Shown piece by piece: positions 8,479-24,294 of a DNA stretch of 42,448 nucleotides; position 1 is the stretch's first letter; each line of letters opens with the position of its first letter. The stretch is from Citricoccus sp. CH26A (GTDB taxonomy: Bacteria > Actinomycetota > Actinomycetes > Actinomycetales > Micrococcaceae): contig NZ_AFXQ01000024.1 in the NCBI RefSeq assembly GCF_000224415.1, forward strand, positions 1-42,448, given 5' to 3'. The notes below the pieces were generated by a model, which was given only the letters and a program-made list of their open reading frames with translations, searched no databases and was not told the DNA's origin. The translations under genes and the position numbers were made by a program.

Positions 8479-9963
8479 TCAGCGGGCCGGACGGCCACCC
8501 GAGGGCAGGGCGTAGGTCTCGATCGTCGGACGGGCCGTGACCCACTGCGTCTCCGTGAAGGCCTCGAAGTTGGCTTCCGGGCCACCGAAGCGGGACCCGG
8601 TCCCCGAGGCCCCCATGCCGCCGAAGGGCGCCATGGACTCGTCCCCCACCGTCTGCTCGTTGAGATGGACCACGCCGCTGTGAACCCGGTCGGCCACGGT
8701 CATGCCCGTGCCGACGTCACCGAGCACGGCCACGGACAGGCCGTACTCGCTGGCATTGACGAGGTCCACCGCCTCGTCGAGACTCCGGTAGGTGAGCACG
8801 GGGGCCACCGGACCGAAGATCTCGTCGGTCCATACCGCCATCCGAGCCGTCACCCCGCCCAGCACGGTCGGCTGGTAGAAACGCCCCTCAGCCGCACCGC
8901 CGGCCAGCACCCGGGCGCCGTCCGCCACCGCCTGGTCCACGAGGGCGGCCACCCCGGCGAGCTGGCGGTCGTCGATGATGGGGCCAACCTGCACACCCTC
9001 CTCGCGATACGGGTCCCCGACCCGCAGTGCGGAGGCGATCCGGGCCAGCTCGGCCAGGTAGGCCTCGGCCTGGTCCTCATGCACGAGATGCCGCCCGGCC
9101 GCCTGGCAGATTTGCCCCTGGTGCAGGAAGGATCCGAAGGCGCCGGCCGCGGCGGCCGGCGCCACGTCCGCGCCCGGCAGCACGATGATGGCGTTGTTGC
9201 CCCCCAGTTCCAGGTGCGCGCGCTTGAGGTGCCGCGCGGCCGTCTCGCCCACTTTCCGGCCAGCCGCCGTCGAACCGGTGAAGGAGATGACGCGCACCTC
9301 CGGTGCTCCAACCACCACCTCGCCGATGTCCGCCCCGCCGGGCAGGGTCTGCAGCACGCCGGCTGGGAGGCCGGCCTCCTCGAAGACCCGTTGGATGGCG
9401 ACGCCGCCGCCCACCGAGGTGCGCGGGTCCGGCTTGAGCAACACGGCGTTACCGACCGCCAGGGCCGGTGCCACGGAGCGGATGCCCAGGGTCAGGGGGT
9501 AATTGAACGGCGCGATGACCGAGACGACACCGGCCGGCACCCGGCGCGAGAGAGACCAGCGGTCCCGATTCGTGGCCAGCACGTCACCCTGCGGATGAGT
9601 CGGCAGGGCTGAGGCCTCGTGGCACTCACCGACGGCGGCTCGCACCTCGGTCGCGGCCTTGGCCCAGGTCCCCCCGCTCTCCCGCACCAGCCATGGGGTG
9701 ATCTCGTCCTCATGAGTCTCGAACAGCTCGCCAGCTCGGCGCAACACCCCTGCCCGCGCGGACGGGGACCACTCGGCCCACTCCCGCTGGGCGCGGGCGG
9801 CACGGCGAGCCGCCTCGGCGGCCTGCGTGACGGAGGCCGTCCCGAGGGTCCCGATCTGCGCACCGGTGGCGGACTCCCGCACGGCCAGCGGCTCACCTTC
9901 CCCGGACACCCATCCCCCGGTGGCGATCCGCCCTTGCCATGTCTCGACGTCCAGCAGGTCCAC
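8479..9963 (-). CDS. Aromatic aldehyde dehydrogenase (benzaldehyde/vanillin dehydrogenase type)
   Basis: This protein has 494 residues from the GTG at 9963, which follows an AGGTAGG that overlaps the stop codon of the hydratase gene upstream. A GTG at 9987 is possible but would overlap that gene. ALDH features, numbered from this start: APFNYP with Asn154, nucleotide-binding FTGSTAAGR near 228, general base Glu252 in LELGGNN, catalytic Cys286 in HQGQICQAAGR, and EIFGPV near 382. The ICQAAGR-type active site and overall pattern resemble benzaldehyde and vanillin dehydrogenases that oxidise aryl aldehydes with NAD(P). It fits directly after the benzoylformate decarboxylase at 21499-23076, oxidising its aldehyde product to a benzoate. 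Confidence 0.88.
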   Translation of the reverse strand: MDLLDVETWQGRIATGGWVSGEGEPLAVRESATGAQIGTLGTASVTQAAEAARRAARAQREWAEWSPSARAGVLRRAGELFETHEDEITPWLVRESGGTWAKAATEVRAAVGECHEASALPTHPQGDVLATNRDRWSLSRRVPAGVVSVIAPFNYPLTLGIRSVAPALAVGNAVLLKPDPRTSVGGGVAIQRVFEEAGLPAGVLQTLPGGADIGEVVVGAPEVRVISFTGSTAAGRKVGETAARHLKRAHLELGGNNAIIVLPGADVAPAAAAGAFGSFLHQGQICQAAGRHLVHEDQAEAYLAELARIASALRVGDPYREEGVQVGPIIDDRQLAGVAALVDQAVADGARVLAGGAAEGRFYQPTVLGGVTARMAVWTDEIFGPVAPVLTYRSLDEAVDLVNASEYGLSVAVLGDVGTGMTVADRVHSGVVHLNEQTVGDESMAPFGGMGASGTGSRFGGPEANFEAFTETQWVTARPTIETYALPSGGRPAR

Positions 9964-9971
9964 GGTTCTGC

Positions 9972-10847
9972 CTACCTGTTCTTCCACTGCGGGGCCCGCT
10001 TCTCGATGAAGGCGCGCACACCCTCGGCACGGTCCTCGCTCGTATAGGGGTTCGGTCCCACGTTCAGGCGTAGGGCGGAGGTGACCGGAAGCCCCCAGCT
10101 CTTGGTGGCCATCTCTTTGTAGCGGCGCAGTGACACGGGTGAATTGGCCACGATGGTCCGGACGTACGCTTCCACTTCGGACGCGAAGTCCTCGCGCGGA
10201 ACGACCCGGTTCACCAAGCCGATCTGCTGGGCCTCCTCTACCGGCACCATCCGTGCGGTGTAGAGCAGGTCCATGGCCAGCGCTCGCGGGATCAGCCGGG
10301 GCAGGACGACGGAACCGAAGTTGGCCCCCATGCCCCGCCGCGCCTCCGTGAGGCCGATGGTGGCGCCCTCCACGGCGATGCGGATGTCGCTGGCCAGGGC
10401 GATCTCGCAGCCGCCGGCGAGCGCGTGGCCGTTGATCGCCGCGATGACCGGCTTGTACGTCTCCAGGATGACCTCCAGCAGCGCGCGGTACATACCTGTC
10501 ATGGGCGTGTGCACCTGGCGGCCGGCGCGCGCCACGCTGTCCATTTCCTTGAGGTCGCCCCCCGCACAGAAGGCCTTGTCCCCGGCGCCGGTGATGACCA
10601 CGGCCCATACGTCGGGGTCCTCGCCAGCGTCCACGAAGGCCTGGGTCAGCAGTTGCACGGTGTGCCGGCTCATGGCGTTGCGCCGTTCCGGACGGTTGAT
10701 GGTGATCCAGGCGACCTGATCCCTGACCTCGTAGAGGACCTCGTCCCTCGTGCCGGTGATGAGGCCATCACCGGTTTCGTCCGCGCGTGGGCCTCGTGGG
10801 GTGCCCTGTGTGGTGCCCTGTGTGGTGTCCTGCGTCAACTCGGTCAT
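9972..10847 (-). CDS. Enoyl-CoA hydratase/isomerase family protein
   Basis: This protein has 291 residues. Its ATG forms an ATGA overlap with the CoA-transferase stop, and AGGAAAGG lies upstream. It is a crotonase fold: AWITINRPERRNAMS near residue 50, oxyanion-hole AFCAGGDLKEM near 90, and AAINGHALAGGCEIALASDIRIA near 138, whose GGCE carries a glutamate that crotonases use for catalysis. The C-terminal KRAPQWKNR is typical of the family. Residues 5-18 are a Thr/Gln/Gly repeat encoded by a 12-bp tandem repeat, extra to the family. In this operon it probably hydrates the unsaturated CoA thioester made by the acyl-CoA dehydrogenase, giving the 3-hydroxyacyl-CoA for the lyase. The substrate is not known. 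Confidence 0.9.
   Translation of the reverse strand: MTELTQDTTQGTTQGTPRGPRADETGDGLITGTRDEVLYEVRDQVAWITINRPERRNAMSRHTVQLLTQAFVDAGEDPDVWAVVITGAGDKAFCAGGDLKEMDSVARAGRQVHTPMTGMYRALLEVILETYKPVIAAINGHALAGGCEIALASDIRIAVEGATIGLTEARRGMGANFGSVVLPRLIPRALAMDLLYTARMVPVEEAQQIGLVNRVVPREDFASEVEAYVRTIVANSPVSLRRYKEMATKSWGLPVTSALRLNVGPNPYTSEDRAEGVRAFIEKRAPQWKNR
10801..10836. repeat. 12-bp tandem repeat inside the enoyl-CoA hydratase gene
   Basis: GTGCCCTGTGTG occurs at 10801-10812 and 10813-10824, with a diverged third copy at 10825-10836 (GTGTCCTGCGTC). In frame it encodes the Thr-Gln-Gly repeat near the N-terminus of the minus-strand protein. Gain or loss of a unit would keep the frame. Confidence 0.7.
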
Positions 10848-12115
10848 GATGCCTTTCCTCCGACCATCTCGGTCCGCTGATTGATGTCGGTCCCCGCCTC
10901 GTCCGGAGCCTCGGTGGCCCCGGTCTCGATGACCCCGGCGGCCAACAGGTCGTCAACCTCACCGCTGGCCAGCCCGAGCGCCGCCAGTACCTCTGCCGTG
11001 TCGGCTCCCAGTTCCGGCGGGGTGCGACGGTGTTCCAGGTATTCGCCGTCGAACGTGATGGGGGTGTTGACCACCGTGGTGGGCCCCAGCCGCGGGTGGG
11101 GGATGTCCTCGAGCTGGCCGAGGGCCCGCACCTGGGGATCGGTGATGACGTTGTCCAGGGTGTTCACCGCGGAGTGCGGGACCTTCGCCCGCTCCAGGCG
11201 CTCGAGAAGCTCCGCCATGGTGAACCGGGCGGTCGCCTCGCCCAAGCGCTCGTTGACCAGGGCTCGGTTTTGCACCCGTGTCAGGTTGTCCTCGAAGCCA
11301 GAGGCGTCCTTGAGGTGGGGTGCTTCGATGGCCTCGAGCAGGCGGTGGAAGCTCTCGTTGTTGCCCACCGAGAGGAACACGTGGCCGTCAGAGGCCGGGA
11401 AGGCTCCGTTGGGGACGTTGCCGCGGAATCCCGAGCCGAGCCGCTGGGGCACAGGACCACCGGCAGCCACGCTCATCAGCGGCGTACCGACCCAGGCCAG
11501 CGCGGTCTGCAGCAGCGAGACCTCCACGTGCGCACCCTCGCCGGTCTGCTCGCGCCGGCGCAGAGCGTCGAAGACGCCGAGGGCGATCCACATCCCCGTG
11601 CCCATGTCCATCATGGACAGTGGCACGCGGGCCGGCGGGCCATCGTCGGCCCCCGTCATCGCGACCACCCCGGAGTAGGCCTGCAGCATGGCATCGTAGG
11701 CCGGTTGGTCCCGGCGCGGGCCGGTTCGTCCGTACCCGGTCATCTCCACGTACACCAACCGGGGATTGAGTTGGCGCAGGCGGTCCCGGGAGAAACCGGC
11801 CGAGGCGAGCGCCCCAGGGCGCAGGTTCTGCACCAGCACGTCGGCCGAGCCGATCAGGTCCTCGAGGACCTGTGCCCCGCGCTCGTCCTTGTAGTTCAGG
11901 ACGACTGAGCGCTTGTTGCGGTTGAGCGAGAGGAAGGTGATCGAGACGCCGTCGCTGAGCGGAGCCCACGTGCGGGCGTCGTCCCCGCCGTTGAGGCGCT
12001 CGACCTTGATGACCTCGGCGCCGAAGTCCGCCAGGATCTGGCAGCCATAGGGCACCGCCACACTGGTGCCGATCTCGATGATGCGGACGCCCTCCAGGGA
12101 TCCTCCGATGCTCAT
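10844..12115 (-). CDS. CaiB/BaiF (class III) CoA-transferase, first copy
   Basis: This protein has 423 residues, with AAGGAG 8 nt before the ATG at 12115. Class III CoA-transferase features are the N-terminal GVRIIEIGTSVAVPYGCQILADFGAEVIKVE, KRSVVLNYKDERG, VQNLRPGALASAGF and the likely catalytic Asp170 in SMMDMGTGMW. These enzymes move CoA between carboxylic acids through an aspartyl-CoA anhydride, without ATP. It overlaps both neighbours (lyase upstream, hydratase downstream) by 4 nt, so the three are translationally coupled. It most likely activates the acid substrate of this pathway as a CoA thioester, perhaps with succinyl-CoA or acetyl-CoA as donor. Confidence 0.92.
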   Translation of the reverse strand: MSIGGSLEGVRIIEIGTSVAVPYGCQILADFGAEVIKVERLNGGDDARTWAPLSDGVSITFLSLNRNKRSVVLNYKDERGAQVLEDLIGSADVLVQNLRPGALASAGFSRDRLRQLNPRLVYVEMTGYGRTGPRRDQPAYDAMLQAYSGVVAMTGADDGPPARVPLSMMDMGTGMWIALGVFDALRRREQTGEGAHVEVSLLQTALAWVGTPLMSVAAGGPVPQRLGSGFRGNVPNGAFPASDGHVFLSVGNNESFHRLLEAIEAPHLKDASGFEDNLTRVQNRALVNERLGEATARFTMAELLERLERAKVPHSAVNTLDNVITDPQVRALGQLEDIPHPRLGPTTVVNTPITFDGEYLEHRRTPPELGADTAEVLAALGLASGEVDDLLAAGVIETGATEAPDEAGTDINQRTEMVGGKAS

Positions 12116-13257
12116 CGCACAGTCTCCTTCCCGGCGGCGAACCGCGCGTCTTGTTCATCGCGGGCCGGTGATCTCACCGGCTCGCGCCAGGGCGAGAGTG
12201 CGCCCTCGTACACCGAGGGCCCGAGACGGAAGTGCTGGGCCTGCTCGAAGGTCTCGACGAACGGCATGTCCATCGGGTACAGGTCTGCCCCTGTGGGGCG
12301 TGGACCGGCGGCGGTCACCTTGGACCAGAGGGGATGGCCCACTACCTCCTCCGCGACCACCCCCGCCTCGACCAGAGCCGTGAGGTCCAGGCCGGTCTCG
12401 ATCCCCTCGGACTCCAACAGGTGGGCGAAGTCTTCCGTGGGAATCATCCGAGTGGCCCGGCCGTTGCCGCAGTACGGGCAGCCGCCCATTCCGCCGATCG
12501 CGGCGTCCACCAGCAGGCAGTGGCGTTCGTCCAATTCCTCGATGGCCACGTAGGCCGAGAGCATGGCCATACCGCGGGCGTCGTGCAGGTGCAGATGATA
12601 ATCCCGCACCTCGGGCCAGGTGTCCACCAGCCGGCGCATCATCGGGCGCATCGCCGCGGGCGTGTTCCAACTCATGGGGTCCCCGACGTGGATGCGGGTC
12701 ACGGGGATGCCCGCCGCCGTCCAGGCGTCGTACTGCAACTGCAGCAACCGCATCCGCTCGTCCTCCGTGAATTCACCGAGCCAGTTGGAGCCCCACGCCG
12801 CATTGATGGAGATCTCCGCGTGGGTGATCCCGGCCTCCTGGGCAGCGGCCACGGAGCGCTCCAGTGCGTCGATCTCGTCCTGCTGGCTGCGGTTGGTGTT
12901 GCGCCGCACGAAGACGTCGCAGAGGTGCACCTTGCTGCGGCCCAGCGTGGGGTCCGGCAAGGTGAGCTTGTGCCCATAGGCGGCCCGGCGCTCCGCGCCA
13001 CGCTGATTGAGCACGATCGCGGTGTACTCCACGCCCTCCACCGGGGTGAATCCGTCGATCACGGCCTCGACCTCGGCCATCTGCGGAGTCCACTTAGGGC
13101 TGACAAAGGCTCCCACGATGATGCGGCGCAGACCGGTTTGGGACAACGCGTCCAGCAGGCGGACCTTGGCCTCGACGGGAATGTCGCGGCTCTCGATCTG
13201 CATGCCCTCGCGCATCCCCTCCTCCTGGATGACGACGGTGGGTCGGCCGTGGCTCAT
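12112..13257 (-). CDS. HMG-CoA-lyase-like (retro-Claisen/aldol) enzyme
   Basis: This protein has 381 residues. The ATG at 13257 overlaps the MmgE/PrpD stop (ATGA); the frame is open further upstream but unlike the family there. It is a TIM-barrel lyase of the HMG-CoA lyase group: EGMREGMQ near residue 13 corresponds to the RDGLQ motif, HLHLHDARGM at 221-230 gives the metal-binding His-x-His, and GGMGGCPYCG at 255-264 contains the loop cysteine (Cys260) that is the catalytic Cys of HMG-CoA lyases. The family cleaves a 3-hydroxy-acyl-CoA into acetyl-CoA and a keto acid. With about 60-80 extra C-terminal residues and this operon, it probably acts on a substrate other than HMG-CoA. I infer a 2-hydroxy-2-aryl-succinyl-CoA type compound. 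Confidence 0.85.
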   Translation of the reverse strand: MSHGRPTVVIQEEGMREGMQIESRDIPVEAKVRLLDALSQTGLRRIIVGAFVSPKWTPQMAEVEAVIDGFTPVEGVEYTAIVLNQRGAERRAAYGHKLTLPDPTLGRSKVHLCDVFVRRNTNRSQQDEIDALERSVAAAQEAGITHAEISINAAWGSNWLGEFTEDERMRLLQLQYDAWTAAGIPVTRIHVGDPMSWNTPAAMRPMMRRLVDTWPEVRDYHLHLHDARGMAMLSAYVAIEELDERHCLLVDAAIGGMGGCPYCGNGRATRMIPTEDFAHLLESEGIETGLDLTALVEAGVVAEEVVGHPLWSKVTAAGPRPTGADLYPMDMPFVETFEQAQHFRLGPSVYEGALSPWREPVRSPARDEQDARFAAGKETVR

Positions 13258-14708
13258 GACGGGTTCCTCCTGGAGAGTACGGATGTGACGGCGGGCCCGG
13301 GCTCCCGGGTAGCCACCTCGATGATCTGGTCGGCAACTGCCGCTTCGTACCCACCGGCCAGGACGCAGTCCACGGCCTTGGCCCGCAGCTCCGCGTCCGT
13401 CAGGGGATCGGCGGACTGGCCGTGGGTGACTTCGACCCGGGCCGCCCGGGTGGAACCGTCCGCGTACATCGCCTCGACCACGGTGAAACCGGTCGTGTAG
13501 TCCGCCGGGCCCACGGGCGGGACGCGATTCTCCGCCACGGTGACTGCGCGCATCAGTGCGTGCACCTGTTCGTCGGCGAAGGCCTCCTCGGTGAAGTCCG
13601 CCAGTGCCACACGCCCGCGCAGGCAGGCCACCGCGAGGGTGTACTCGAGACTGAACTTTGCCTCGGTGCCGGTGGTGGGCGGCGTGCTGCGCAGGGGCCG
13701 GGTGCCACGCCGGTGCAGGGTGGCGCGCACCTCGATAGGACAGTCCTGCCGTCCCGCCTCGGCGTGCTCGCGCCGGATGGCGAGCATCGCGTCGATGCCG
13801 CGGTGAGTCCCGTAGCAGCTCGCGTACTGCTTGATCCCCCAATCCTGCACCCAGGCGTCGGTCCAGTACTCCAGCCGCTCCTCGAGCGTCTGCGCCGGCA
13901 GACCGACCGGGGCCTCCGCAGGGTCACCGTAGCGCTCCAGAAAACCGTTCGGCGCCTCCAGTTCGGCAGGGTTCGCGGTGAACCCGGCCTCCGACAGCTC
14001 CACGGCCATCACCGCATCCCGCGCGGCCGCGCCGGCGTGCAGGGGCTTCGTCATCGAACCGAAGTTCAGACGGGAGCCGGCGGCGAGCGAAGAGGCGATT
14101 CCCAGTGCGTTTCGCGCCGTCCCCGCGTCGAGACCCACGAGCCGGACGAGCGCGGCGACGGCGGCCAGCCGGCCGATCGTGGAGGTGCTGTGCCAACCGC
14201 GGGCGTAGTGCACGTGTTGGGGAAGGATGTCGGCGAGGGCACGGAAGGCGGCGGCGCCGACGTCGTAGGACTCCGTGAAGGCGGACGAGTCCGTCCCGCG
14301 GGCCTCTCCCAAGGCCACCAACGCCGGTATCAGCACGGCGCTGGGGTGCAGGGGCATCGACGGGGAGATGTCGTCGAAGTCCAGGAGGTGGGCGACCGTG
14401 CCATTGACGAGTGCGGCGGTGGACGCCGACGTCGGCTCCCCCGAAGTCCAAAGCGTGGCCGGGCCGGACGGGGACTCCGCCCGGGACCAGCCGCGCAGGA
14501 TCCGCTCTCCCGGGGCCCCAGCCCCGCCGAGGGTCACCGCGACGGTGTCCACCAGGGCACGGGAAACCTCGGCCGAGTGGTCGGCCGCGACCGGGGCCCC
14601 GGTGGCGGCGAACTCCGCCAGGACCTCGGTCGTGCCGACCTCGGCCCCATGGTCGACACGGCGGATGGAGGCGTGGTCCGTTCCGCGCTGGGCTACGTGC
14701 TCGGCCAA
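13254..14708 (-). CDS. MmgE/PrpD family (2-methylcitrate dehydratase-like) protein
   Basis: The family match starts around TTEVLAEFAATGAPV. In frame there is no ATG or GTG between the upstream gene's stop (14713-14715) and that region. A TTG at 14708 gives a 484-residue protein and is the best available start, but it has no clear ribosome binding site. Family signatures are DTVAVTLGGAGAPGERIL, ALVNGTVAHLLDFDDIS (residues about 105-125), the HPSAVLIPALVALGE and ARGWHSTST regions, MTKPLHAGAAARDAV near 225, and KQYASCYGTHRGIDA near 300. Relatives dehydrate 2-methylcitrate or decarboxylate cis-aconitate. Here it probably (de)hydrates or decarboxylates a branched di- or tricarboxylic intermediate. 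Confidence 0.82.
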   Translation of the reverse strand: MAEHVAQRGTDHASIRRVDHGAEVGTTEVLAEFAATGAPVAADHSAEVSRALVDTVAVTLGGAGAPGERILRGWSRAESPSGPATLWTSGEPTSASTAALVNGTVAHLLDFDDISPSMPLHPSAVLIPALVALGEARGTDSSAFTESYDVGAAAFRALADILPQHVHYARGWHSTSTIGRLAAVAALVRLVGLDAGTARNALGIASSLAAGSRLNFGSMTKPLHAGAAARDAVMAVELSEAGFTANPAELEAPNGFLERYGDPAEAPVGLPAQTLEERLEYWTDAWVQDWGIKQYASCYGTHRGIDAMLAIRREHAEAGRQDCPIEVRATLHRRGTRPLRSTPPTTGTEAKFSLEYTLAVACLRGRVALADFTEEAFADEQVHALMRAVTVAENRVPPVGPADYTTGFTVVEAMYADGSTRAARVEVTHGQSADPLTDAELRAKAVDCVLAGGYEAAVADQIIEVATREPGPAVTSVLSRRNPS

Positions 14709-14712
14709 GGCG

Positions 14713-15900
14713 TCAGAACGACTTCGGGAGGCCCAGCGTGCCGTGGGCGATACCGGCGAGCACGAGGTTGTTGCTGATCGGCGCGGTGCGCGGCAACCGC
14801 GCCTCGCGCCACTTGCGCTCGATGCCATACTCCTCCGCCGCGGCATAGCCGCCGAAGGTGTCGAAAGTAGCGTCGGCAGCAGCCCACAGTGCCTCCGAGG
14901 CCAGCAGCTTGGCCCCGTTGACCTCGAACCGCGGGTTCTCCCCGGCCGCGTACATCTCAGCAGCCCGCCAGCGCATCAGCGAGGCGGCCTGCAGCTGGGC
15001 GTAGGCCCGGGCCAGCGGCACCTGCAGCGCCTGGTTCTGGCCGATCTTGCGGCCGAATACCTCGCGTTCATTGGCATACTGCACCGCGCGATCAAGCAGG
15101 TAGAAGCCCGCCCCGATGTACTCGCTCGTGACGATGACCCGTTCGGAGTTCATCCCGGAGAGGATGACCCGGAACCCCTTGCCCTCCTCACCGATGCGGT
15201 TGGCGACGGGGACCCGCAGGTCCCGGATCGCAAGCTCGTTGGTCTCATGGTTGACCATGGTCTTGATCGGGGTCGCCACGATCTGGCCGTTGTCGATCGC
15301 CGTGCGCAGGTCCACGAGCAGCACGGTGAAGCCATCGGTGGGCTTGGTCGCGTCCTCACGTTTGGTGGTGCGGACGAGCAGCAGCAGCAGGTCGGAGTGC
15401 TGCACGCGGGAGATGAAGATCTTGTTGCCGTTGACGACGTAGTCGTCACCGTCGCGAACCGCGAACGTCTTGATGCGGGTCGTGTCACTGCCGGCGTCGG
15501 GCTCCGTCACGCCAAAGGACTGCAGCCGCAGCTCCCCTGAGGCGATCTTCGGCAGCCACTCGGCCTTCTGTTCCTCCGAGCCGTGGCGCAGGATGGCACC
15601 CATGGTGTACATCCCGGCGCGGGCGGCGCCGGCGTGGCAGCCGTTGCGTTCGAGCTGCTCCAGCACGACCGCCGCGTCGCGGATGTCGGCGCCGCCACCG
15701 TCGTACTCCTCCGGGATGAGCATGCCCATCCAGCCGGCGTCGTACAGCGCGTCGACGAACTCCTCGGGGTAGGTGCCCTCTGCGTCGTGCTTGCGCCAGT
15801 ACTCGTTGTCGAACGGCTCGCAGAGGTCGTCGATCGCATCGCGGATGAATCGCTGGTCCTCGTTCAGACTGAATGCCGAGGACTCGATGGTGGCTGTCAT
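14713..15900 (-). CDS. Acyl-CoA dehydrogenase
   Basis: This protein has 395 residues, with AAGGAG 8 nt before the ATG at 15900. The full acyl-CoA dehydrogenase layout is present: an N-terminal helical domain with GMLIPEEYDGGGAD, a central beta domain with SFGVTEPDAGSDTTRIKTFAV and GNKIFIS, and a C-terminal helical domain with EREVFGRKIGQNQALQVPLA and DTFGGYAAAEEYGIERKWREARL. The usual C-terminal YEGT glutamate is absent (the region reads RTAPISNN). However, Glu253 in SGMNSERVIV aligns with the alternative base used by isovaleryl-CoA dehydrogenase, so the enzyme is probably active, perhaps on branched substrates. It passes electrons to ETF. It follows the MFS gene by 67 nt. Confidence 0.92.
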   Translation of the reverse strand: MTATIESSAFSLNEDQRFIRDAIDDLCEPFDNEYWRKHDAEGTYPEEFVDALYDAGWMGMLIPEEYDGGGADIRDAAVVLEQLERNGCHAGAARAGMYTMGAILRHGSEEQKAEWLPKIASGELRLQSFGVTEPDAGSDTTRIKTFAVRDGDDYVVNGNKIFISRVQHSDLLLLLVRTTKREDATKPTDGFTVLLVDLRTAIDNGQIVATPIKTMVNHETNELAIRDLRVPVANRIGEEGKGFRVILSGMNSERVIVTSEYIGAGFYLLDRAVQYANEREVFGRKIGQNQALQVPLARAYAQLQAASLMRWRAAEMYAAGENPRFEVNGAKLLASEALWAAADATFDTFGGYAAAEEYGIERKWREARLPRTAPISNNLVLAGIAHGTLGLPKSF

Positions 15901-15967
15901 GGGGGTGCTCCTTCTGTGTGGTCCAGATCAGTGAATCCGAGCCACCCGGCAGAGGAAATCGGAAGTC

Positions 15968-17278
15968 TCACCGAGTGGAATTGCGTTCCCGGGGATCCTG
16001 CGCTGGGTCGTCACCTGCCCGGTCCAGCACGGCCGCACCGGCGGCCCCCGGGACCAGGACGGGCACCAGGATCATGACCGTGACGGCCAGCAGGAGGGCG
16101 GCTCCGAGCAGGGCGGTGGTCAGGCGCACGCCCCAGACGTCCGTGAGGACACCACCGAGCAGGACGCCCAGGGCGATCGTGGCGGAGAAGACCATGTGCC
16201 GGACCGCGAGTACCCGGCCACGCAGGCCGTCCGGAGCCAACAGTTGGATGACCGAGTTGAGGGCCGCGAAGGAGGCCAGGAACGCGGCGCCAACACCGAC
16301 CGCAGCGAGCACGCCGAGGCCGTAGCCCGGGGCGGCCCCCATGGCCACGAGGGCTAGGCCGAGGGCCGTGATCGCCAGAATGATGCGCCGCGCGAAACTC
16401 AGTGGACCCCCGCGGCGCAACAGGCCGGCCAGGGCGAAGAGCACGGCCCCGACGCCGAGTGCGGCCGTGAGCACACCCAGGCCGATCGCGTCGGTGTCGT
16501 AGACGGTCTCGGCAAAGACGACGGTGAGGTTGAAGACCGGGTTCCCCAGCAGCCCCACGAGACAGCACAACCCGATCGCCAGCAGCATCGGAGAGCTCCC
16601 GGCCATGTATCGCACCGCATCTCGCCACTGCACGAAAAATCCCCTGCCGGTGGAGGTCCGCACCCGGGACCGGTGCTGCCGGACGAACGCGAGGGTGACC
16701 ACGACGACCACGAAGGACACGGCGTTGAGCAGGAACGCCCAAGACGCCCCCAGAGTGGCCAGTAACACGCCAGCCACGGCGGGCCCCACGGCCCGAGCAA
16801 GGTTGAACTGCAGTGAGTTCAGCGTCACCGCTGAGAGTACGTCCTCCCGCGGGACCAGGTCGTTGACAAGGGACTGCCACGCCGGGTTGTTGAGTCCGTT
16901 GAGCACGCCGAAGACGGTGACCAGGACGAGGAGTAAGGCAGGCTCGTGCGCACCGACGGACCACTGGATCCACATCGCCACGGCCACCAGACCCAGTCCA
17001 GCCTGCGTCCACATCAGCAACACGCGCCGGTCCACGGTGTCTGCCAGGCACCCTCCCAGGGGCGCCAGCACGAAGGCCGGGCCGAACTGTGCGGCGGCGG
17101 CCAGGCCCACCCACACGGCACTGTCCGTCTGCTGGTACAGGACATAGGGCACGGTGAGGTTTCCCAGCCACGTGCCGGTGCTGGAGATGAGGGCGCCGAT
17201 CCAGAACAGCGTGAACCCGCGGTGACGGAAGGCGGCAAGGGACCCGCGGTGCGGGAACCCACCGGCTGGGGTGATCAT
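15968..17278 (-). CDS. Major facilitator superfamily transporter (MFS_3/EntS-like)
   Basis: This protein has 436 residues. The ATG at 17278 follows AGGAGAG, and the N-terminus (FRHRGFTLFWIGALISSTGTWLGNLTVPYVLYQQT) is typical of the DHA3/MFS_3 group. There are about 12 hydrophobic segments. The loop between helices 2 and 3 reads GGCLADTVDRRVLLMW, a form of the MFS GxLaDrxxRR motif; other signatures are VNDLVPREDVLSAVTLNSLQFNLARAVGPAVAG and GLRGRVLAVRHMVF. This group is mostly drug or metabolite exporters. In a catabolic operon it may export a toxic intermediate or carry the aromatic substrate. A hairpin upstream (17322-17354) may separate it from the ABC genes. Confidence 0.85.
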   Translation of the reverse strand: MITPAGGFPHRGSLAAFRHRGFTLFWIGALISSTGTWLGNLTVPYVLYQQTDSAVWVGLAAAAQFGPAFVLAPLGGCLADTVDRRVLLMWTQAGLGLVAVAMWIQWSVGAHEPALLLVLVTVFGVLNGLNNPAWQSLVNDLVPREDVLSAVTLNSLQFNLARAVGPAVAGVLLATLGASWAFLLNAVSFVVVVVTLAFVRQHRSRVRTSTGRGFFVQWRDAVRYMAGSSPMLLAIGLCCLVGLLGNPVFNLTVVFAETVYDTDAIGLGVLTAALGVGAVLFALAGLLRRGGPLSFARRIILAITALGLALVAMGAAPGYGLGVLAAVGVGAAFLASFAALNSVIQLLAPDGLRGRVLAVRHMVFSATIALGVLLGGVLTDVWGVRLTTALLGAALLLAVTVMILVPVLVPGAAGAAVLDRAGDDPAQDPRERNSTR

Positions 17279-17321
17279 CGAGACTCTCCTGGGGTGGGTG
17301 CGGTGGCGGTGGGTGGCACGG

Positions 17322-17354
17322 GAGAACCCGGCACGGTGACCGTGCCGGGCTCTC
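17322..17354. terminator. Hairpin between the ABC solute-binding protein and MFS genes
   Basis: CCCGGCACGG (17327-17336) and CCGTGCCGGG (17340-17349) flank a TGA loop. After one mismatch the stem extends by a further 4 bp (GAGA with TCTC). It lies 28 nt past the stop of the solute-binding protein gene. It could terminate or attenuate the ABC transcript before the MFS gene, or protect a processed mRNA end. Confidence 0.6.
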
Positions 17355-17381
17355 ATGGTCCGGGTCCAGTGGGGAGGCCGG

Positions 17382-18482
17382 TCAGCGCCCGAACGCCTCC
17401 CGCCAGACCTGGGCGTCCTCGCTGGCGTACTTGAGCTCGTCCTCGGCCGGCATGAGCCAGACCTTGTCGGAGTCGAGGGCGGGCAGGTCGCGACCGAGGG
17501 CCTGGGGCGGGGCGATGTCCGAGCGAGCGGAGTAGTCACCCACCTGGGTGATCACCGACTGGCCGCGCTCGGAGAGCGCGTAATTGAGGAACGCCTCTGC
17601 GGCCTCGCTATTCTCGGCGTTCTCGACCTTCCCGGCGAAGAAGCTGAACAGGACGACGCCCTCCTCCGGCACGACGTAGTCGATCGGCGCCCCGTCCTCG
17701 GTGACGGCGACGTTGACGGCCGCGGTGCCCGCGGTGGCGACATCGAGCTCGTTGCGCGCCAGGGCCTCTTGGCGCTGGCCACCGCTGTCATAGACCGACG
17801 GGTTCAGCTCAGCGAGCTTGGTCCAGAACTCGGGGTCGACCTCCTCCTGGATGAAACGGTTCAGGGCGATGGAAGATCCACCGGCGGTTCCCTGCGTGAT
17901 CCCGATCCTGCCCTTGTACTCTTCGTCGAGCAGATCGGCCCAGGCCTGAGGGGCCTCCTCGGGCGTGATGCTCTGGGTGTTGTAGGCGAAGGTCACCGGG
18001 ACGTTGGCCAGTGTCACGAAGGCACCGGCGTTGTGCTGCAGCTCCGGCATCCCCTCGATCGCCGTGGGGACGAAGGGCTCCCAGACGCCAGCCTCGTCGA
18101 ACTCGTTGGCCACCTTGTAGTCCGAGGTGATGATCACGTCCGCGCCCAGCTGTCCGGCACCATCCTCGGAGAGGATGCGTTCGGAGAGTTTGTTGGTCAC
18201 GTCCCGGACGTACTCGACCTTGATGCCCGTGTCCTCTGTGAAGGCGTGATTGAGGACCTCCTGGTTCGCCTCCTGATAACCGGTGTAGATGGTGAGGGTC
18301 TGGTCTTTGGCCGCTTCGTAGGCCTTTTGATCGAGGATCTGCTGACCGTTGATGACCAGTCCGTCATCGGTGTTCACCTCGGCTTCGCTGGTCACCACGC
18401 TGGTCGAGGTGCCCCCAGAGCAGGCGGTAATTGTCAGCATGAGCGCCGCGAGGGATGCGATGCCGCCAGTGCGCAGTTTCAT
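17382..18482 (-). CDS. ABC transporter substrate-binding lipoprotein (ferric-iron/aminoethylphosphonate type)
   Basis: This protein has 366 residues. A signal peptide (MKLRTGGIASLAALMLTITAC) ends in a lipobox whose Cys21 would be lipidated, so it is anchored outside the membrane. The mature part is a type II periplasmic-binding fold: LTIYTGYQEANQEVLNHAFTEDTGIKVEYVR near residue 68, GADVIITSDY near 114, and YKGRIGITQGTAGGSSIAL near 195. This layout matches extracellular solute-binding proteins of the Fe(III)/AfuA and 2-aminoethylphosphonate class. It is followed by no further ABC gene and preceded by its permease. The real ligand could be iron or an organic anion fed into this pathway; the sequence alone does not decide. 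Confidence 0.88.
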   Translation of the reverse strand: MKLRTGGIASLAALMLTITACSGGTSTSVVTSEAEVNTDDGLVINGQQILDQKAYEAAKDQTLTIYTGYQEANQEVLNHAFTEDTGIKVEYVRDVTNKLSERILSEDGAGQLGADVIITSDYKVANEFDEAGVWEPFVPTAIEGMPELQHNAGAFVTLANVPVTFAYNTQSITPEEAPQAWADLLDEEYKGRIGITQGTAGGSSIALNRFIQEEVDPEFWTKLAELNPSVYDSGGQRQEALARNELDVATAGTAAVNVAVTEDGAPIDYVVPEEGVVLFSFFAGKVENAENSEAAEAFLNYALSERGQSVITQVGDYSARSDIAPPQALGRDLPALDSDKVWLMPAEDELKYASEDAQVWREAFGR

Positions 18483-18552
18483 GATGATGCCTTTCGTTGA
18501 GTCGAGGCCGAGGACGGGGGTGTCCGACGGCAGGGGTCAGCGGACGGCGGGG

Positions 18553-20376
18553 TCAACGGACAGCGTCCTTGAACTTCCGCTCGCGCATGCCGATCACTTG
18601 GGTCGCGATCGCCACGACCGCGATGAGCAGGACGAACACGAGGCTGAGGGCTGCGGAGTAGCTGATGCTGCCGTTCTCGAAGCTGTGGAACACAAGGATC
18701 GAGAGCACTCGGGTGTCAGAGGTGTAGAGGAAGAGGATGGCGCTCATCTCCCGCAGGCCGAGCATGAGCAGCAGCAGCAGGGTCGAGACCAGGCCCGTGC
18801 GCATCAGCGGGATGGTGACGTCACGCACCGCCCGTAGACGGTTGGCGCCCAGCATCACGGCGCTGTGCTCCAAGTCGCCGTCCATCTGCAGCATCGAGGA
18901 GGAGATGCTCCGGTAGCCCTGCGGCATGTTCACCGCCACCGTGGCGATGACCAGCAGCAGCAGGGTCCCGAAGACCGGGAGGGGCAGCGTGAGCCAGGCC
19001 CACAGGATGCCCATGCCCAGCACGACCTGCGGGATGGCGAGCGGCAGCATGGAGACCTGCTCCAGCAACTGACCGGCGCGCGAGGTGGTCCGGTAGCGGA
19101 CGTATGAGGCCATGAAGGCGATCAGCGTGCCGGCCGCTGCGGCCAGCAGAGCCATGAGGATCGAGTTCCAGGTGGACGTCTGGAAATCCGCCTGGCCCAT
19201 CGACTCGAGCAGACGGTCGGCCGAGAACCCCGCGAACAGGTCGGAGAAGCGGTTGATGTAGACCTTGTCCCCCATTGCTGTGAACACGAGCGCCGCCACG
19301 GGCAGCAGCACGGACAGGGCGAAGTAGGCCAGCGCGAATCCAGTGGCCACCCAGCGCATCCAGCGCAACGGGATGGTCCGCGGGCGGTTGCCCTTGCCGG
19401 TGAGGGTGGTGAACCGCTTACGGTTGACCACCCTCTGCTGCAACCAGGTCACGACCACGACTGCCACGGTGAGGGCGATGGCGATGCCGGCCGCGGCGTT
19501 GGGCCGGGAGTCTCCGGCCATCAGCCGGTAGATGTACGTCGGCAGGGTCTCGATGCCGGCCGGGTTGCCCAGGATGGCGTTGACCGGGAAGTTCTCCATG
19601 GCCAGGGTGAAGCACAGGATCGCCGCCCCGGCCAGCGCCGGGACCGACAGCGGCAGAGTCACGGTCCGGAACAGCCGGCCCAGGCTGGCGCCGTGGACGG
19701 AGGCGGCCTCCTCCAGGTCGGCGTTCATCATGGAGAACGAGCTGTAGGTGAGCATGAACGCGTAGGGCGCGTAGTACAGCCCCAGCACGAAGATGATGCC
19801 ACCGTAGGAATAGATGTTCAGCGCACTGCCGATCCCGATGGCCTCGAGGAAGAGGTTGAGGTGCCCGGCTGTGGGGCTGGCCAGGATGGACCAGGCCAGG
19901 GCGCCTACGAGTGCCGGCAGGAACATCGGGGCCATGCCGGTGATATAGATGAAGCGCTTCCAGGGCGCGTCGGTACGGGCCGCGATGAAGGCGAGCAGGG
20001 CCCCGACGACCAGCGAGAGCACACCGGCTCCGACACCGATGACCAAAGAGTTGATGATGCTCTGGCGGCCCTCCGGGGTCGCGAGAATGCCGAAGTTGGC
20101 CCAGGTGAACTCACCGATCTGGGCATTGCCCGGGCGCGGCACGGCGGTGGACACGGCGGCGATGATGATGAAGATGACCGGCAGGATGACCAGGAAGAAC
20201 AGCAGGACGGCCAGGATCCCACTGGGCACCTCCCTGCGAAGTGCTGTCAGGGTCAGGCGGCCGGTCCGGCGGCGCGGGGGTCCGGGGCTCACCTCACGGT
20301 TGATCGCGGCGACGGCGCGCGTCGAGGGTTCCTCGGTGGTTGGTTTGGCCTCAGCGGACGGGAGGGTGAAGGTCAT
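18553..20376 (-). CDS. ABC transporter permease, fused two-domain (FbpB/ThiP type)
   Basis: This protein has 607 residues and starts at 20376 inside an ATGA overlap with the ATPase gene. Two homologous permease domains are joined in one chain with about 12 membrane segments. Each has the EAA cytoplasmic loop that contacts the ATPase: EEAASVHGASLGRLFRTVTLPL near residue 213, and EHSAVMLGANRLRAVRDVTIPL near 510. Fusion of both halves is characteristic of the ferric-iron, thiamine and aminoethylphosphonate importers. The first 45 residues are a soluble polar lead. It functions with the ATPase and lipoprotein on either side. Confidence 0.92.
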   Translation of the reverse strand: MTFTLPSAEAKPTTEEPSTRAVAAINREVSPGPPRRRTGRLTLTALRREVPSGILAVLLFFLVILPVIFIIIAAVSTAVPRPGNAQIGEFTWANFGILATPEGRQSIINSLVIGVGAGVLSLVVGALLAFIAARTDAPWKRFIYITGMAPMFLPALVGALAWSILASPTAGHLNLFLEAIGIGSALNIYSYGGIIFVLGLYYAPYAFMLTYSSFSMMNADLEEAASVHGASLGRLFRTVTLPLSVPALAGAAILCFTLAMENFPVNAILGNPAGIETLPTYIYRLMAGDSRPNAAAGIAIALTVAVVVVTWLQQRVVNRKRFTTLTGKGNRPRTIPLRWMRWVATGFALAYFALSVLLPVAALVFTAMGDKVYINRFSDLFAGFSADRLLESMGQADFQTSTWNSILMALLAAAAGTLIAFMASYVRYRTTSRAGQLLEQVSMLPLAIPQVVLGMGILWAWLTLPLPVFGTLLLLVIATVAVNMPQGYRSISSSMLQMDGDLEHSAVMLGANRLRAVRDVTIPLMRTGLVSTLLLLLMLGLREMSAILFLYTSDTRVLSILVFHSFENGSISYSAALSLVFVLLIAVVAIATQVIGMRERKFKDAVR

Positions 20377-21488
20377 GCCGCCACCCCCGCACGCTCCTGG
20401 ATCAGCGGTGCGTCCTGCGGGAGGATCTGCACGGCACCGGCGTCCATGGTCACCCAGACGCTGTCCCCGGGCTGGAAACGTTCCGCGGCGCTGAGCGGCG
20501 CCAGGATGTCGAGGTCCGGCATACCGGACGCCACTTCGACGGCGTAGCGGATGGTGCTGCCTTGAAAGCTGCTCACGCGGACGGTCCCGCGCCAGCTGTT
20601 GGCACCGGGGGCGCCGGTACTGGAGAGGCGGATGTCCTCACTGCGGAAGCAGGCGTGCAGCTCCCCGGCGCCCACGGGCTCGAGTCCGGCACTCGCCAAC
20701 GTGAGGTCCGTGTCGGTGACGGTGTACGTCCCAGAGGCCCCGGCGGTCACCGGGTGCACATTCGAGACTCCGAGGAAGTGGGCGATCTGGGCACTGGCCG
20801 GCTCGAGGTACATCGCCGAGGGCGAATTCATCTGGACGATGACGCCGTTCTGCATGAGGGCGATGCGGTCGGCCAGTGCGAAGGCCTCCTGCTGGTCGTG
20901 CGTGACGTAGACCGTGGTCAAACCCAACTGCAACTGGATCTCGCGCAGCTCGATGCGCAGGCGGTCGCGTAGCCGGGCGTCGAGATTGGACAGCGGCTCG
21001 TCCAACAGCAGCACGTCCGGGCGCATCACCAGGCTGCGGGCCAAGGCCACGCGCTGCATCTGGCCACCGGAAAGCAGGCTGGCGCCGCGACTGGCGAAGT
21101 CCTCCAGGCCGACGAGCTCGAGCGCCTCGTGGACACGGTTCGCGGTCTCGGCCTTGCCGAGCCCCTGAACCTTGAGAGAGTAGGCCACGTTCTCGAACAC
21201 GGTCATGTGCGGCCACACCGCGTAGGACTGGAACACCATACCGACGTTGCGCCGGTGGGGTGGGATGTTGATTCCGGCCTCGGCGTCGAACACCACGGTG
21301 TCGCCGATGGTGATCCGGCCGGCGGTCGGCTCCTCGAGTCCGGCGATACAGCGCATCGTACTGGTCTTGCCACAGCCCGACTTGCCGAGGAGAACAACAG
21401 ACTCGTGGTCCCCGATTTCGAGGTTCATGTTGTCGATCGCGGTGAACTTGCCGTACCGCAGCTGGAGGTTCTCGATGGTGATCTTCAT
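20373..21488 (-). CDS. ABC transporter ATP-binding protein (FbpC/PotA type)
   Basis: This protein has 371 residues. It shows Walker A GKSGCGKTSTMR near residue 35, the Q-loop in VFQSYAVWPHM, the ABC signature LSGGQMQRVALARSL near 140, Walker B VLLLDEPLSNLDARL near 160, and the switch His in YVTHDQQEA. A TOBE-type C-terminal domain covers about residues 240-371. It energises the importer formed with the fused permease and lipoprotein. It starts 10 nt after the benzoylformate decarboxylase gene, so the importer is probably co-expressed with that enzyme. Confidence 0.94.
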   Translation of the reverse strand: MKITIENLQLRYGKFTAIDNMNLEIGDHESVVLLGKSGCGKTSTMRCIAGLEEPTAGRITIGDTVVFDAEAGINIPPHRRNVGMVFQSYAVWPHMTVFENVAYSLKVQGLGKAETANRVHEALELVGLEDFASRGASLLSGGQMQRVALARSLVMRPDVLLLDEPLSNLDARLRDRLRIELREIQLQLGLTTVYVTHDQQEAFALADRIALMQNGVIVQMNSPSAMYLEPASAQIAHFLGVSNVHPVTAGASGTYTVTDTDLTLASAGLEPVGAGELHACFRSEDIRLSSTGAPGANSWRGTVRVSSFQGSTIRYAVEVASGMPDLDILAPLSAAERFQPGDSVWVTMDAGAVQILPQDAPLIQERAGVAA

Positions 21489-21498
21489 GGTTCCTGCC

Positions 21499-23076
21499 TC
21501 AGTCGAAATAGGTGAGCGCCTCGATCAGCACCGGTTCCTGGGCCGCGAAGGCCCGGGTCAGTGCATCTCGAAGCTCGGCCTCGGTGGCCACGGACTCGGC
21601 TCGCACGCCATAACCCTGGGCGATCGACACGAAGTCGATGCCGAGGAGGTCGAAGGACGGGGTGCCCGGGGTGTCGAGGCGCCGGCCGAAGTTGACGAGT
21701 GCCCCGTAGGTCTCGTTCCGAAGGATGACGAAGACGACCGGCACGCGGTGCCGCGCCGCCGACCACAGCCCGGTGATGCCGAAGTTCGCCGATCCGTCGC
21801 CGATCTCGGCGACCACGCGGCGATCCGGCCGCGCCAGCTGGATGCCGACCGCGGCGGGTAGGCCGAAGCCCAGTCCGCCAGCGGCCGCGGAATAGAAGGA
21901 GCCCTGCTCTCGCATGCGGATCTGCGACCAGAACGAGGCAGCCGTGGAGGTCGACTCGACGACGTGGATGGCGTCGTCGGGCCCGGTCTCCTGGATCGAC
22001 CGGAACACCGTGTCCGGGTGCATCCGGTGGGGACGGTCGGTCCCCGCTTCGTGCGGGGATCGCGGCCGGGGCCGGACTTCGCGGACGGCCACGGCCTCGG
22101 CAAGCTGTGCGAGGGTGTCGCTCACTGGAGCCAGGTAACCCTCTCCAAAGGGGGCCCGGGCGAGCTCGTCCGGATCCTGGGAAACGTGGAGGAGCCGGGT
22201 GGTGCCACCGAGGTAGCGGCCCGGCTTGTCGTGGTGGTACCGGAAGACCGGTGCCCCCACTACCAGGACGAGATCGTGGACCGACAGCAGCTGCGAGATA
22301 TCCGCGACGTTGGCCGGCAGCACCCCTGCAAAATTCGCGTGGTCCGTGGGGAAGGGGCAACGCGCCGGTGAGGGCGCGATCCAGACCGGGGCACCGAGCC
22401 GTTCCGCGAGTCGCACGGCGTCGTCGTTGGCGTGGGTGGCGTCCACCTCGGGGCCGAGGACGAGGGCTGGTGAGAACGAGCCCTCGATCGCCTCGAGCAG
22501 CTCGGAGAGTCGGCCCGGGGCCAGTGCGTAGGCGTCCTGGACGTCACGGGCGACGGTCAGCGGGGTGTTGTCATCAGCAGGGTGGTCCCAGTCGTCGTGG
22601 GGCACCGAGACGTGTGCAGGCCCCTTGGGATGCATGCCGGCAGTGTGGATGGCCTGTGCGAGTGAACGGACCACGTCGTTGGCGGAGAGCGGTTCGGCGC
22701 TGTACTTCGTCAACGGCCGGGGCAACTGGGTCGCCTCGGCACTGGCGACCATGATCTCCTGCCCCACCATGTCTCGGACCTGCTGGCCCGAGAGGACGAC
22801 GACAGGTGACTTGGAGTGGACCGTGTTCGCCAGTACTCCCATCGAGGTCCCGGTGCCGGCGGCGGAGTGGAGGCTGACCAGAGGCACCCGGCCGGAGGCC
22901 TGCGCGTAGCCGTCGGCCATGGCCATCACGGCTCCCTCGTGCAGGCCCAGGATGTACTCGAAGTCGTGGGGGAAGTCCTTGAGGAACTGGAGTTCGTTCG
23001 ACCCTGGGTTGCCGAAGACCGTGGTCATCTCGTGCCGACGCAACAGGTCGTACGTGGCTTCTCGGATGGTTGCCAT
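21499..23076 (-). CDS. mdlC: Benzoylformate decarboxylase (thiamine diphosphate enzyme)
   Basis: This protein has 525 residues, with AAGGAA before the ATG at 23076. It aligns almost without gaps to Pseudomonas putida benzoylformate decarboxylase as I recall it. The family's functional residues fall at the same numbers: Ser26 in FGNPGSNE, Glu47 that activates thiamine diphosphate, His70 in SLHSAAGTG, and His281 in VFRYHH. The cofactor motif GDGSANFGITGLWSAA lies near residue 430. The enzyme converts benzoylformate (phenylglyoxylate) to benzaldehyde and CO2 in the cytoplasm. Neither mandelate racemase nor mandelate dehydrogenase is in the window, so the arylglyoxylate probably comes from another route. 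The aldehyde dehydrogenase at 8479-9963 would take the product further. Confidence 0.92.
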   Translation of the reverse strand: MATIREATYDLLRRHEMTTVFGNPGSNELQFLKDFPHDFEYILGLHEGAVMAMADGYAQASGRVPLVSLHSAAGTGTSMGVLANTVHSKSPVVVLSGQQVRDMVGQEIMVASAEATQLPRPLTKYSAEPLSANDVVRSLAQAIHTAGMHPKGPAHVSVPHDDWDHPADDNTPLTVARDVQDAYALAPGRLSELLEAIEGSFSPALVLGPEVDATHANDDAVRLAERLGAPVWIAPSPARCPFPTDHANFAGVLPANVADISQLLSVHDLVLVVGAPVFRYHHDKPGRYLGGTTRLLHVSQDPDELARAPFGEGYLAPVSDTLAQLAEAVAVREVRPRPRSPHEAGTDRPHRMHPDTVFRSIQETGPDDAIHVVESTSTAASFWSQIRMREQGSFYSAAAGGLGFGLPAAVGIQLARPDRRVVAEIGDGSANFGITGLWSAARHRVPVVFVILRNETYGALVNFGRRLDTPGTPSFDLLGIDFVSIAQGYGVRAESVATEAELRDALTRAFAAQEPVLIEALTYFD

Positions 23077-24284: not shown

Positions 24285-24294
24285 CGGAGTGGCC

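Follow-up and report, generated by a model that had tools for sequence, protein, structure and literature searches.

The mandelate pathway consists of mandelate dehydrogenase, benzoylformate decarboxylase (BFD) and benzaldehyde dehydrogenase. A different series of reactions is determined by the itaconate/methylsuccinate cluster (Ict, Msi, Mcd, Ich, Ccl), in which a CaiB CoA-transferase, an MmgE/PrpD-type (S)/(R)-methylsuccinate isomerase and methylsuccinyl-C4-CoA dehydrogenase lead to mesaconyl-C4-CoA; hydration and cleavage by citramalyl-CoA lyase then give acetyl-CoA and pyruvate, as has been proven (Gonner and colleagues, PMC12290011). Features of both systems meet in a gene island (positions 8479-23076, minus strand) of contig NZ_AFXQ01000024.1 of Citricoccus sp. 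CH26A. The window analyzed here is this whole contig of 42,448 nucleotides (C44 of the 3.47 Mb genome). On the basis of homology and gene linkage we propose, with a probability of about 0.45, that the genes of the island serve the breakdown of a succinate with an aryl substituent and constitute an aryl counterpart of the methylsuccinate pathway; the most likely substrate would be 2-(3-hydroxyphenyl)succinate.

Gene content of the island and the proposed route

Island genes were assigned to families by Pfam and NCBIfam searches (Table 1). In order of transcription they encode BFD, an ATP-binding cassette (ABC) ATPase, permease and solute-binding protein, a major facilitator superfamily (MFS) transporter, an acyl-CoA dehydrogenase (ACAD), MmgE/PrpD, an HMGL-like lyase, a CaiB CoA-transferase, a crotonase, an aldehyde dehydrogenase (ALDH) and an IclR regulator. 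The searches bear out the initial annotation, which had placed the CoA-transferase, ACAD, hydratase, MmgE/PrpD, lyase, BFD and ALDH genes in one same-strand series flanked by genes for 3-hydroxybenzoate 6-hydroxylase (3HB6H) and gentisate dioxygenase (GDO). The gaps from BFD through to MmgE, measured from start positions, are 10, -4, 70, 103, 67 and ~4 bases, and from MmgE to ALDH the five final enzyme genes overlap successively by 4, 4, 4 and ~16 bases. With gaps of at most 103 bases and these overlaps, the BFD-to-ALDH series may form a single transcript. A consensus scan detected no terminator-like sites in the island gaps, which is a weak test as it returned fewer sites than its own shuffles, and the promoter and terminator scan of the island was uninformative.

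As judged from sequence and analogy, the CoA operon appears to match the methylsuccinate pathway reaction for reaction, with two steps carried out by unrelated enzymes. CaiB, MmgE/PrpD and ACAD are followed by hydration and cleavage in both systems (PMC12290011), but the island hydratase is a crotonase and not a MaoC-type protein, its lyase has the HMGL fold and is not CitE, and BFD, ALDH and gentisate genes are added; the proposed side chain is aryl instead of methyl. Queries for the MaoC-type hydratase (Ich) and the CitE-type citramalyl-CoA lyase (Ccl), taken from a CitE-MmgE-CaiB-MaoC-ACAD cluster of a Rhodococcus rhodochrous plasmid (L182, called methylsuccinate type by gene content only), had no match in the window, and the PF03328 matches in this genome are on contigs other than the window's. 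The window ACAD and CaiB are 51% and 33% identical to their counterparts in this plasmid cluster. Among solved structures, the best sequence match of CaiB is succinate-hydroxymethylglutarate CoA-transferase, and that of MmgE is iminodisuccinate epimerase (206 bits, against 153 for the next protein), whose catalytic His, Tyr and Lys positions seem to be kept on inspection by eye. Those MmgE/PrpD proteins whose function is known have 1,4-dicarboxylates as substrates (PMC12290011), and we propose that the window MmgE/PrpD is an isomerase of a substituted succinate. On another contig of the same genome (G000:C59, locus L175), ACAD, CitE, MaoC and ALDH genes form what is possibly a separate itaconate-like module.

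A precedent for CoA transfer to phenylsuccinates is the anaerobic indoleacetate pathway (phenylsuccinyl-CoA transferase IaaL, mutase IaaGH, IaaF), where IaaL-dependent CoA transfer to (2-aminophenyl)succinate precedes the ACAD step, as in the island (PMC8360864). That pathway differs in that a mutase forms benzylmalonyl-CoA and the dehydrogenase is decarboxylating; neither an HMGL-type lyase nor an arylglyoxylate is mentioned in the available portions of the paper (PMC8360864).

In the proposed scheme the ABC system would import arylsuccinate, MmgE/PrpD would interconvert its (S) and (R) forms, CaiB would form the 4-CoA ester and ACAD would convert arylsuccinyl-CoA to arylfumaryl-CoA. The crotonase would hydrate the latter to 2-aryl-2-hydroxysuccinyl-CoA, which the HMGL-fold lyase would split into acetyl-CoA and arylglyoxylate; replacing methyl by aryl turns the product of the lyase into the BFD substrate. 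BFD would yield the arylaldehyde and ALDH 3-hydroxybenzoate, whose breakdown 3HB6H, GDO and the hydrolase would complete. We infer all of these steps from homology and gene linkage. Each enzyme of the series can be given a role, as the initial annotation had envisaged, and the isomerase role of MmgE/PrpD is added here; however, the genes do not follow the order of the reactions, and the ABC and MFS genes had gone unmentioned. The route from an aryl-dicarboxylate to an arylglyoxylate that the initial annotation had proposed is plausible and partly supported: it shares the logic of a proven pathway and its genes form a conserved unit (see below), while the arylsuccinate substrate is one that we only infer. 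No description of an arylsuccinate/arylglyoxylate pathway was found in the open-access literature, judged mostly at title and abstract level, and no mention of phenylmalyl-CoA was found in the open-access literature searched.

The window BFD scores 676.9 bits on the NCBIfam equivalog NF005485 (cut-off 493) and keeps Ser26, Glu47, His70, His281, Leu461 and Phe464, which we take to be functional residues of BFD. Pocket position 397 is Ser in the window protein and in that of Terrabacter (described below). Six further BFDs in the comparison have Phe there, and the thiamine pyrophosphate (TPP) proteins of Nocardioides and Chloroflexota have Thr and Ala, respectively; Ser397 could fit a hydroxylated ring. 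Four of the five other genomes with BFD at E<=1e-140 were examined. A LysR gene adjoins BFD in all four and in Terrabacter, and in three of them (G621, G655, G866) the ALDH encoded next to BFD is 61-63% identical to the window ALDH, which argues that the latter is the natural partner of BFD. This BFD-type ALDH gene ends the CoA operon in both the window and Terrabacter, a position that ties BFD to the CoA enzymes more strongly than any other feature. The presence of BFD and its ALDH argues for an arylglyoxylate as the keto acid set free. With the mandelate pathway the island shares the BFD and ALDH steps that convert arylglyoxylate to benzoate; in contrast to that pathway, no mandelate dehydrogenase is assigned on the island contig, and the proposed source of arylglyoxylate is a CoA-dependent lyase. 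The best solved-structure match of 3HB6H, 4bjy, is presumably the Rhodococcus jostii enzyme, and its Tyr105, Val107, His213, Tyr217 and Gln301, which we assume to bind 3-hydroxybenzoate, are kept in the alignment (by eye). These residues suggest a 3-hydroxyphenyl rather than a phenyl substituent.

A distinct subfamily of HMGL-fold lyases

The window lyase has the same fold as the HMG-CoA lyase of leucine degradation and shares with it R41, N138, D204, H233, H235 and C266 (human numbering). We take R41, D42, E72, H233, H235, C266 and N275 to be catalytic or site residues of the human enzyme. A bifunctional HMG-/citramalyl-CoA lyase has reportedly been found in Mycobacterium tuberculosis. The predicted model of the window lyase (mean pLDDT 76) gave human HMG-CoA lyase as the best match, which only confirms the fold; the structures matched include 6nds, titled as HMG-CoA lyase bound to CoA and 3-methylmalate. 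On the curated HMG-CoA lyase model PRK05692 the protein scores 157 bits, below the cut-off of 246. It differs from HMG-CoA lyase by E72 to I, T205 to P, N275 to M and D42 to E, and continues for ~60 residues past the end of the match to the human chain.

Residues were compared in 22 subfamily lyases, 14 lyases from the 56 control loci and 10 from the 16 intermediate loci; the control and intermediate sequences were cut at the match ends, so that the C-terminal extension is not fairly compared. All 22 subfamily lyases keep R41, Q45, N138, D204, H233, H235 and C266, and all have lost E72 (V in 17), T205 (P in 21) and N275 (M in 19), whereas these three are retained in 14/14 control lyases; position 172 is W in 20/22. 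On this sequence evidence, the window lyase is a member of a subfamily that has lost HMG-CoA-lyase residues and is not a normal HMG-CoA lyase. Activity on HMG-CoA alone, which the initial annotation had named first among the findings that would overturn its pathway, looks unlikely.

Conservation of the island in other bacteria

Close relatives of the lyase are rare in the two genome samples searched. In an order-level sample, 18 of 297 genomes contain a match at E<=1e-30, exceeding 37% identity only in the Citricoccus genome itself, and in a phylum-level sample the lyase occurs at >=56% identity in 4/396 genomes, its own included. A scan of species genomes with an alignment of five lyases, in which the best 80 of at least 590 stretches were examined, gave at least 17 near-complete relatives (49-68% identity). 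Six plasmid loci (H1, H4, H5, H6, H7, H16), of 366 records with a lyase relative, were also examined.

Among the matches listed, the best relative of the island is found in Terrabacter sp. Ter38, where 15 island genes are kept together with 50-85% identity: 3HB6H (66%), GDO (76%), hydrolase (68%), LysR (50%), IclR (60%), ACAD (85%), MmgE (57%), HMGL (68%), CaiB (60%), crotonase (76%), ALDH (67%), BFD (62%), ABC ATPase (68%), permease (62%) and solute-binding protein (51%). They are arranged as hydrolase-GDO-3HB6H on one strand, ACAD-MmgE-HMGL-CaiB-crotonase-ALDH-IclR, and LysR with BFD-ATPase-permease-binding protein. Relative to the CoA operon, the BFD-ABC block differs in position, standing before the operon in the window but on the opposite side in Terrabacter, and the gentisate genes, which flank the window island on both sides, form one block there. 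An additional Terrabacter group consists of CaiB-like, CitE-like and MmgE-like genes, while the MFS gene has no relative in the stretches examined. In Nocardioides sp. Iso805N, genes for a BFD-like TPP protein (35% identical to BFD), ACAD, HMGL, CaiB, ALDH and crotonase follow each other on one strand. Since the blocks are rearranged yet stay together in Terrabacter and linkage recurs in Nocardioides, the island is not a chance neighbourhood; at the level of sequence its genes are a conserved unit.

Related arrangements were detected in other bacteria. A plasmid of Diaphorobacter sp. HDW4B carries MmgE-TPP enzyme-HMGL-ACAD-MaoC-MaoC-CoA-transferase (double), with ALDH and relatives of 3HB6H, GDO and the hydrolase starting 2.4 to 7 kb past the cluster (the last three, 31, 32 and 47% identical, ~4 kb on). 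In Variovorax sp. SRS16 the order is TPP enzyme-HMGL-MmgE-ACAD-CoA-transferase, and in Rhodococcus sp. USK10 the HMGL gene is accompanied by CaiB, ACAD, LeuCD-like and 2-oxo-acid dehydrogenase genes (partly by eye).

Neighbouring genes were counted at 21 subfamily loci (L076-L092, L024, L052, L053, L054), 16 hand-picked intermediate loci (plasmid matches H4 to H7, L055-L060, L093-L098) and 56 controls of similar length (L100-L155), assumed by distance to be ordinary HMG-CoA lyases; L075 (H16) and the contig-end fragment L099 were left out. Unlike HMG-CoA lyase genes, those of the window type lie near CaiB (17/21 subfamily, 7/16 intermediate and 0/56 control loci), MmgE (5/21, 3/16 and 0/56) and sometimes TPP genes (5/21, 4/16 and 0/56; the TPP and E1 queries came from L027, L051 and L024, which match by construction and without which the first two counts are 4/20 and 2/14). 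GDO and 3HB6H relatives occur near the lyase in 1/21, 2/16 and 0/56 loci. In four loci from Acidimicrobiales and Acidobacteria metagenome-assembled genomes (L078, L079, L081, L082) the lyase gene directly follows one for a transferase of the CaiB2 type (a second window CaiB, see below). An IclR gene comes next at three of these loci, and L082 also has 2-oxo-acid dehydrogenase E1 relatives; no dehydrogenase or crotonase gene was found in the DNA examined, as if the substrate were already hydroxylated.

A wider reading, which we put forward slightly more tentatively than the arylsuccinate proposal, is that of a new aerobic pathway in which MmgE racemisation, HMGL-fold lyases with an altered metal and acyl site and a Ser397 BFD would lead to 3-hydroxybenzoate and gentisate; the lyases would represent a general family of 2-substituted-malyl-CoA lyases across several phyla, and the TPP enzyme that takes over the 2-oxo-acid product would vary (BFD, an acetolactate-synthase-like enzyme or 2-oxo-acid dehydrogenase).

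Several observations weigh against an arylsuccinate route. We know of no natural source of 2-(3-hydroxyphenyl)succinate. Only two genomes among the matches listed, the window's and that of Terrabacter, hold the full gene set, and in the window itself BFD is split off from the CoA operon by the ABC importer and MFS genes. 3HB6H and GDO score below the cut-offs of PRK08163 (386 vs 459 bits) and TIGR02272 (314 vs 442 bits), as do the Nocardioides and Chloroflexota TPP proteins on the BFD model (451 and 381 bits vs 493), both of which are without His281. The D42 to E change, present in 21/22 subfamily lyases including that of the window, is common to 10/10 intermediate sequences and is therefore wider than the subfamily. 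ACAD and crotonase genes do not discriminate between subfamily (7 and 8/21) and control loci (22 and 30/56), and a TPP enzyme was not found in 16/21 subfamily loci, although some span only 3.6 to 8.1 kb and absences there are weak. The four loci with a CaiB2-type transferase adjoining the lyase yielded no ACAD, crotonase or MmgE.

The most serious competitor, which we nevertheless consider unlikely, is that the CoA operon encodes a methylsuccinate or alkylsuccinate pathway in which the HMGL protein replaces CitE and yields pyruvate, with BFD, ALDH and the gentisate genes as an independent cassette alongside. Its reaction set would be identical to the proven one (PMC12290011). L096, L077, L080 and L052 have much of the CoA module but no BFD, which also speaks against the arylsuccinate route (two of the four are short contigs, and three BFD relatives lie elsewhere in the L077 genome), and G621, G655 and G866 contain LysR-BFD-ALDH-MFS cassettes (MFS by eye) with no relative of the CoA genes in the 20 kb examined. 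However, pyruvate requires neither BFD nor ALDH, a BFD-type ALDH is embedded in the CoA operon of both the window and Terrabacter, the island linkage survives rearrangement, and Nocardioides and Diaphorobacter couple a TPP enzyme to the same reactions. It is more doubtful still that the lyase cleaves another tertiary 3-hydroxyacyl-CoA, such as 3-aryl-3-hydroxyglutaryl-CoA or 3-aryl-3-hydroxypropionyl-CoA, to a 3-oxo acid, ketone or aldehyde, so that BFD would not be the next enzyme: HMG-CoA itself would yield a 3-oxo acid, and it is HMG-CoA lyases that the protein matches in sequence and fold, but E72, T205 and N275 are lost, BFD requires a 2-oxo acid, and the action of MmgE/PrpD proteins on 1,4-dicarboxylates (PMC12290011) fits succinate and not glutarate or propionate. 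We regard this as very improbable.

Between these two in likelihood, and improbable in our view, stands a mandelate-type route. Here the ABC system would take up arylglyoxylate or (3-hydroxy)mandelate, BFD would receive its keto acid from an alpha-hydroxy-acid dehydrogenase encoded away from the island, and the CoA operon would serve something else. The initial annotation had stressed the lack of a mandelate gene to supply benzoylformate and had held that its pathway would be refuted if BFD acted only in a mandelate route with the dehydrogenase gene nearby outside the window. No mandelate racemase or dehydrogenase is present among the window proteins assigned to families, and the window extends at least 19 kb to each side of BFD. 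The genome does, however, encode an FMN dehydrogenase (G000:C33) 56% identical to the alpha-hydroxy acid oxidase whose gene neighbours mdlC on a plasmid of Rhodococcus opacus, as well as an FAD oxidase (contig C49) 44% identical to the product of the other neighbour of that mdlC. The hydroxy-acid dehydrogenase could supply benzoylformate from mandelate, and the missing mandelate gene is consequently weak evidence. On the other side, the FMN_dh and FAD-oxidase matches found in this genome are on contigs other than the island's, the C33 and C49 genes have no relative in the Terrabacter or Nocardioides stretches searched, and FMN-dependent alpha-hydroxy-acid enzymes are often lactate dehydrogenases. 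The altered pocket shared by the window and Terrabacter BFDs argues against this route as well.

Genomic context and significance

Coordinates of the island and flanking genes are given in Table 1. The ALDH open reading frame (ORF) reaching 10608 is over-long, and the gene was taken as 8479-9987. The electron transfer flavoprotein is a possible electron acceptor for ACAD.

Table 1. Genes of the island and its flanks, with the basis of their assignment and the roles proposed
Feature	Coordinates	Strand	Basis	Proposed role
Electron transfer flavoprotein genes	3277..5109	-	Pfam ETF for 4324-5262; ORF 3277-4266 by eye from translation	
3HB6H	5374..6585	+	Best solved-structure match 4bjy	
IclR regulator, operon end	7449..8393	-	Pfam HTH_IclR + IclR_C	
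ALDH	8479..9987	-	Pfam Aldedh	3-hydroxybenzaldehyde dehydrogenase, BFD partner
Crotonase-family hydratase	9972..10847	-	Pfam ECH_1	Arylfumaryl-CoA hydratase
CaiB/BaiF class III CoA-transferase	10844..12115	-	Pfam CoA_transf_3, 390 bits	Succinyl-CoA:arylsuccinate CoA-transferase
HMGL-like lyase, distinct subfamily	12112..13257	-	Pfam HMGL-like, 55 bits	2-aryl-2-hydroxysuccinyl-CoA lyase
MmgE/PrpD	13254..14708	-	Pfam MmgE_PrpD N + C	(S)/(R)-arylsuccinate isomerase
ACAD	14713..15900	-	Pfam	Arylsuccinyl-CoA dehydrogenase
MFS transporter	15968..17278	-	Pfam MFS_3	
ABC solute-binding protein	17382..18482	-	Pfam SBP_bac_6	Substrate importer
ABC permease, two-domain	18553..20376	-	Pfam BPD_transp_1, two stretches	
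ABC ATPase	20373..21488	-	Pfam ABC_tran + TOBE_2	
BFD	21499..23076	-	NCBIfam NF005485, over cut-off	3-hydroxybenzoylformate decarboxylase
LysR regulator, divergent from BFD	23186..24178	+	Pfam HTH_1 + LysR_substrate	
Gentisate 1,2-dioxygenase (GDO)	24292..25320	+	TIGR02272 best NCBIfam match, below cut-off; nearest solved structure 2d40	
Fumarylpyruvate or maleylpyruvate hydrolase	25320..26174	+	Pfam FAA_hydrolase	

A further module at 27259-32836 (minus strand) comprises genes for an IclR regulator, a CaiB-type transferase (CaiB2), a citrate-synthase-like citryl-CoA lyase (30049-30843, PF00285) and an AcnA-type aconitase, and probably determines CoA-dependent breakdown of a hydroxy-di- or tricarboxylate. 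The CaiB2 transferase-lyase pair is also present on Rhodococcus koreensis, Azoarcus, Ruegeria and Diaphorobacter plasmids. On a plasmid of Novosphingobium sp. KACC 22771 (L026), relatives of the hydrolase, GDO, 3-hydroxybenzoate hydroxylase, CaiB2, IclR, an intermediate-type HMGL, aconitase and ALDH genes are clustered in what looks like an alkylgentisate (citraconate, citramalyl-CoA) route, and the polycyclic aromatic hydrocarbon (PAH) cluster of Sagittula sp. MA-2 contains HMGL, acyl-CoA transferase and maleylpyruvate hydrolase genes (PMC11705938). These two clusters prompted the idea that the window lyase acts with CaiB2 and the aconitase as a citramalyl-CoA lyase for alkylgentisates, which is weakened because CaiB2 has its own citryl-CoA-lyase-like partner and no close CaiB2 was found in Terrabacter (none at E<=1e-90). 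The aerobic auxin (iad) pathway was likewise rejected as a model, as its acetyl side chain is thought, by inference from annotation, to be removed by an AMP-ligase and thiolase (PMC12633357); the available portions of PMC9613470 do not name a lyase for this route.

A transposase-like ORF start (32927-33580, plus strand, by eye) adjoins the CaiB2 module and may mark an insertion boundary. Three genes at 34010-40493 (minus strand) match PADLOC ZacA, ZacB and ZacC at 371, 528 and 1068 bits and form a candidate anti-phage defence system; the next gene, at 40531-41793 (plus strand), encodes an exonuclease-BRCT protein.

If the arylsuccinate proposal is correct, a CoA-dependent source of arylglyoxylates would be added beside the mandelate route, and the logic of the methylsuccinate pathway would extend to aromatic substrates. 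It would also provide a function for a lyase subfamily that has HMG-CoA lyases as its closest named relatives, and uncharacterised MmgE/PrpD proteins of such operons would be predicted to be substituted-succinate isomerases. Finally, it would point to a natural aryl-dicarboxylate that is eaten by some bacteria.

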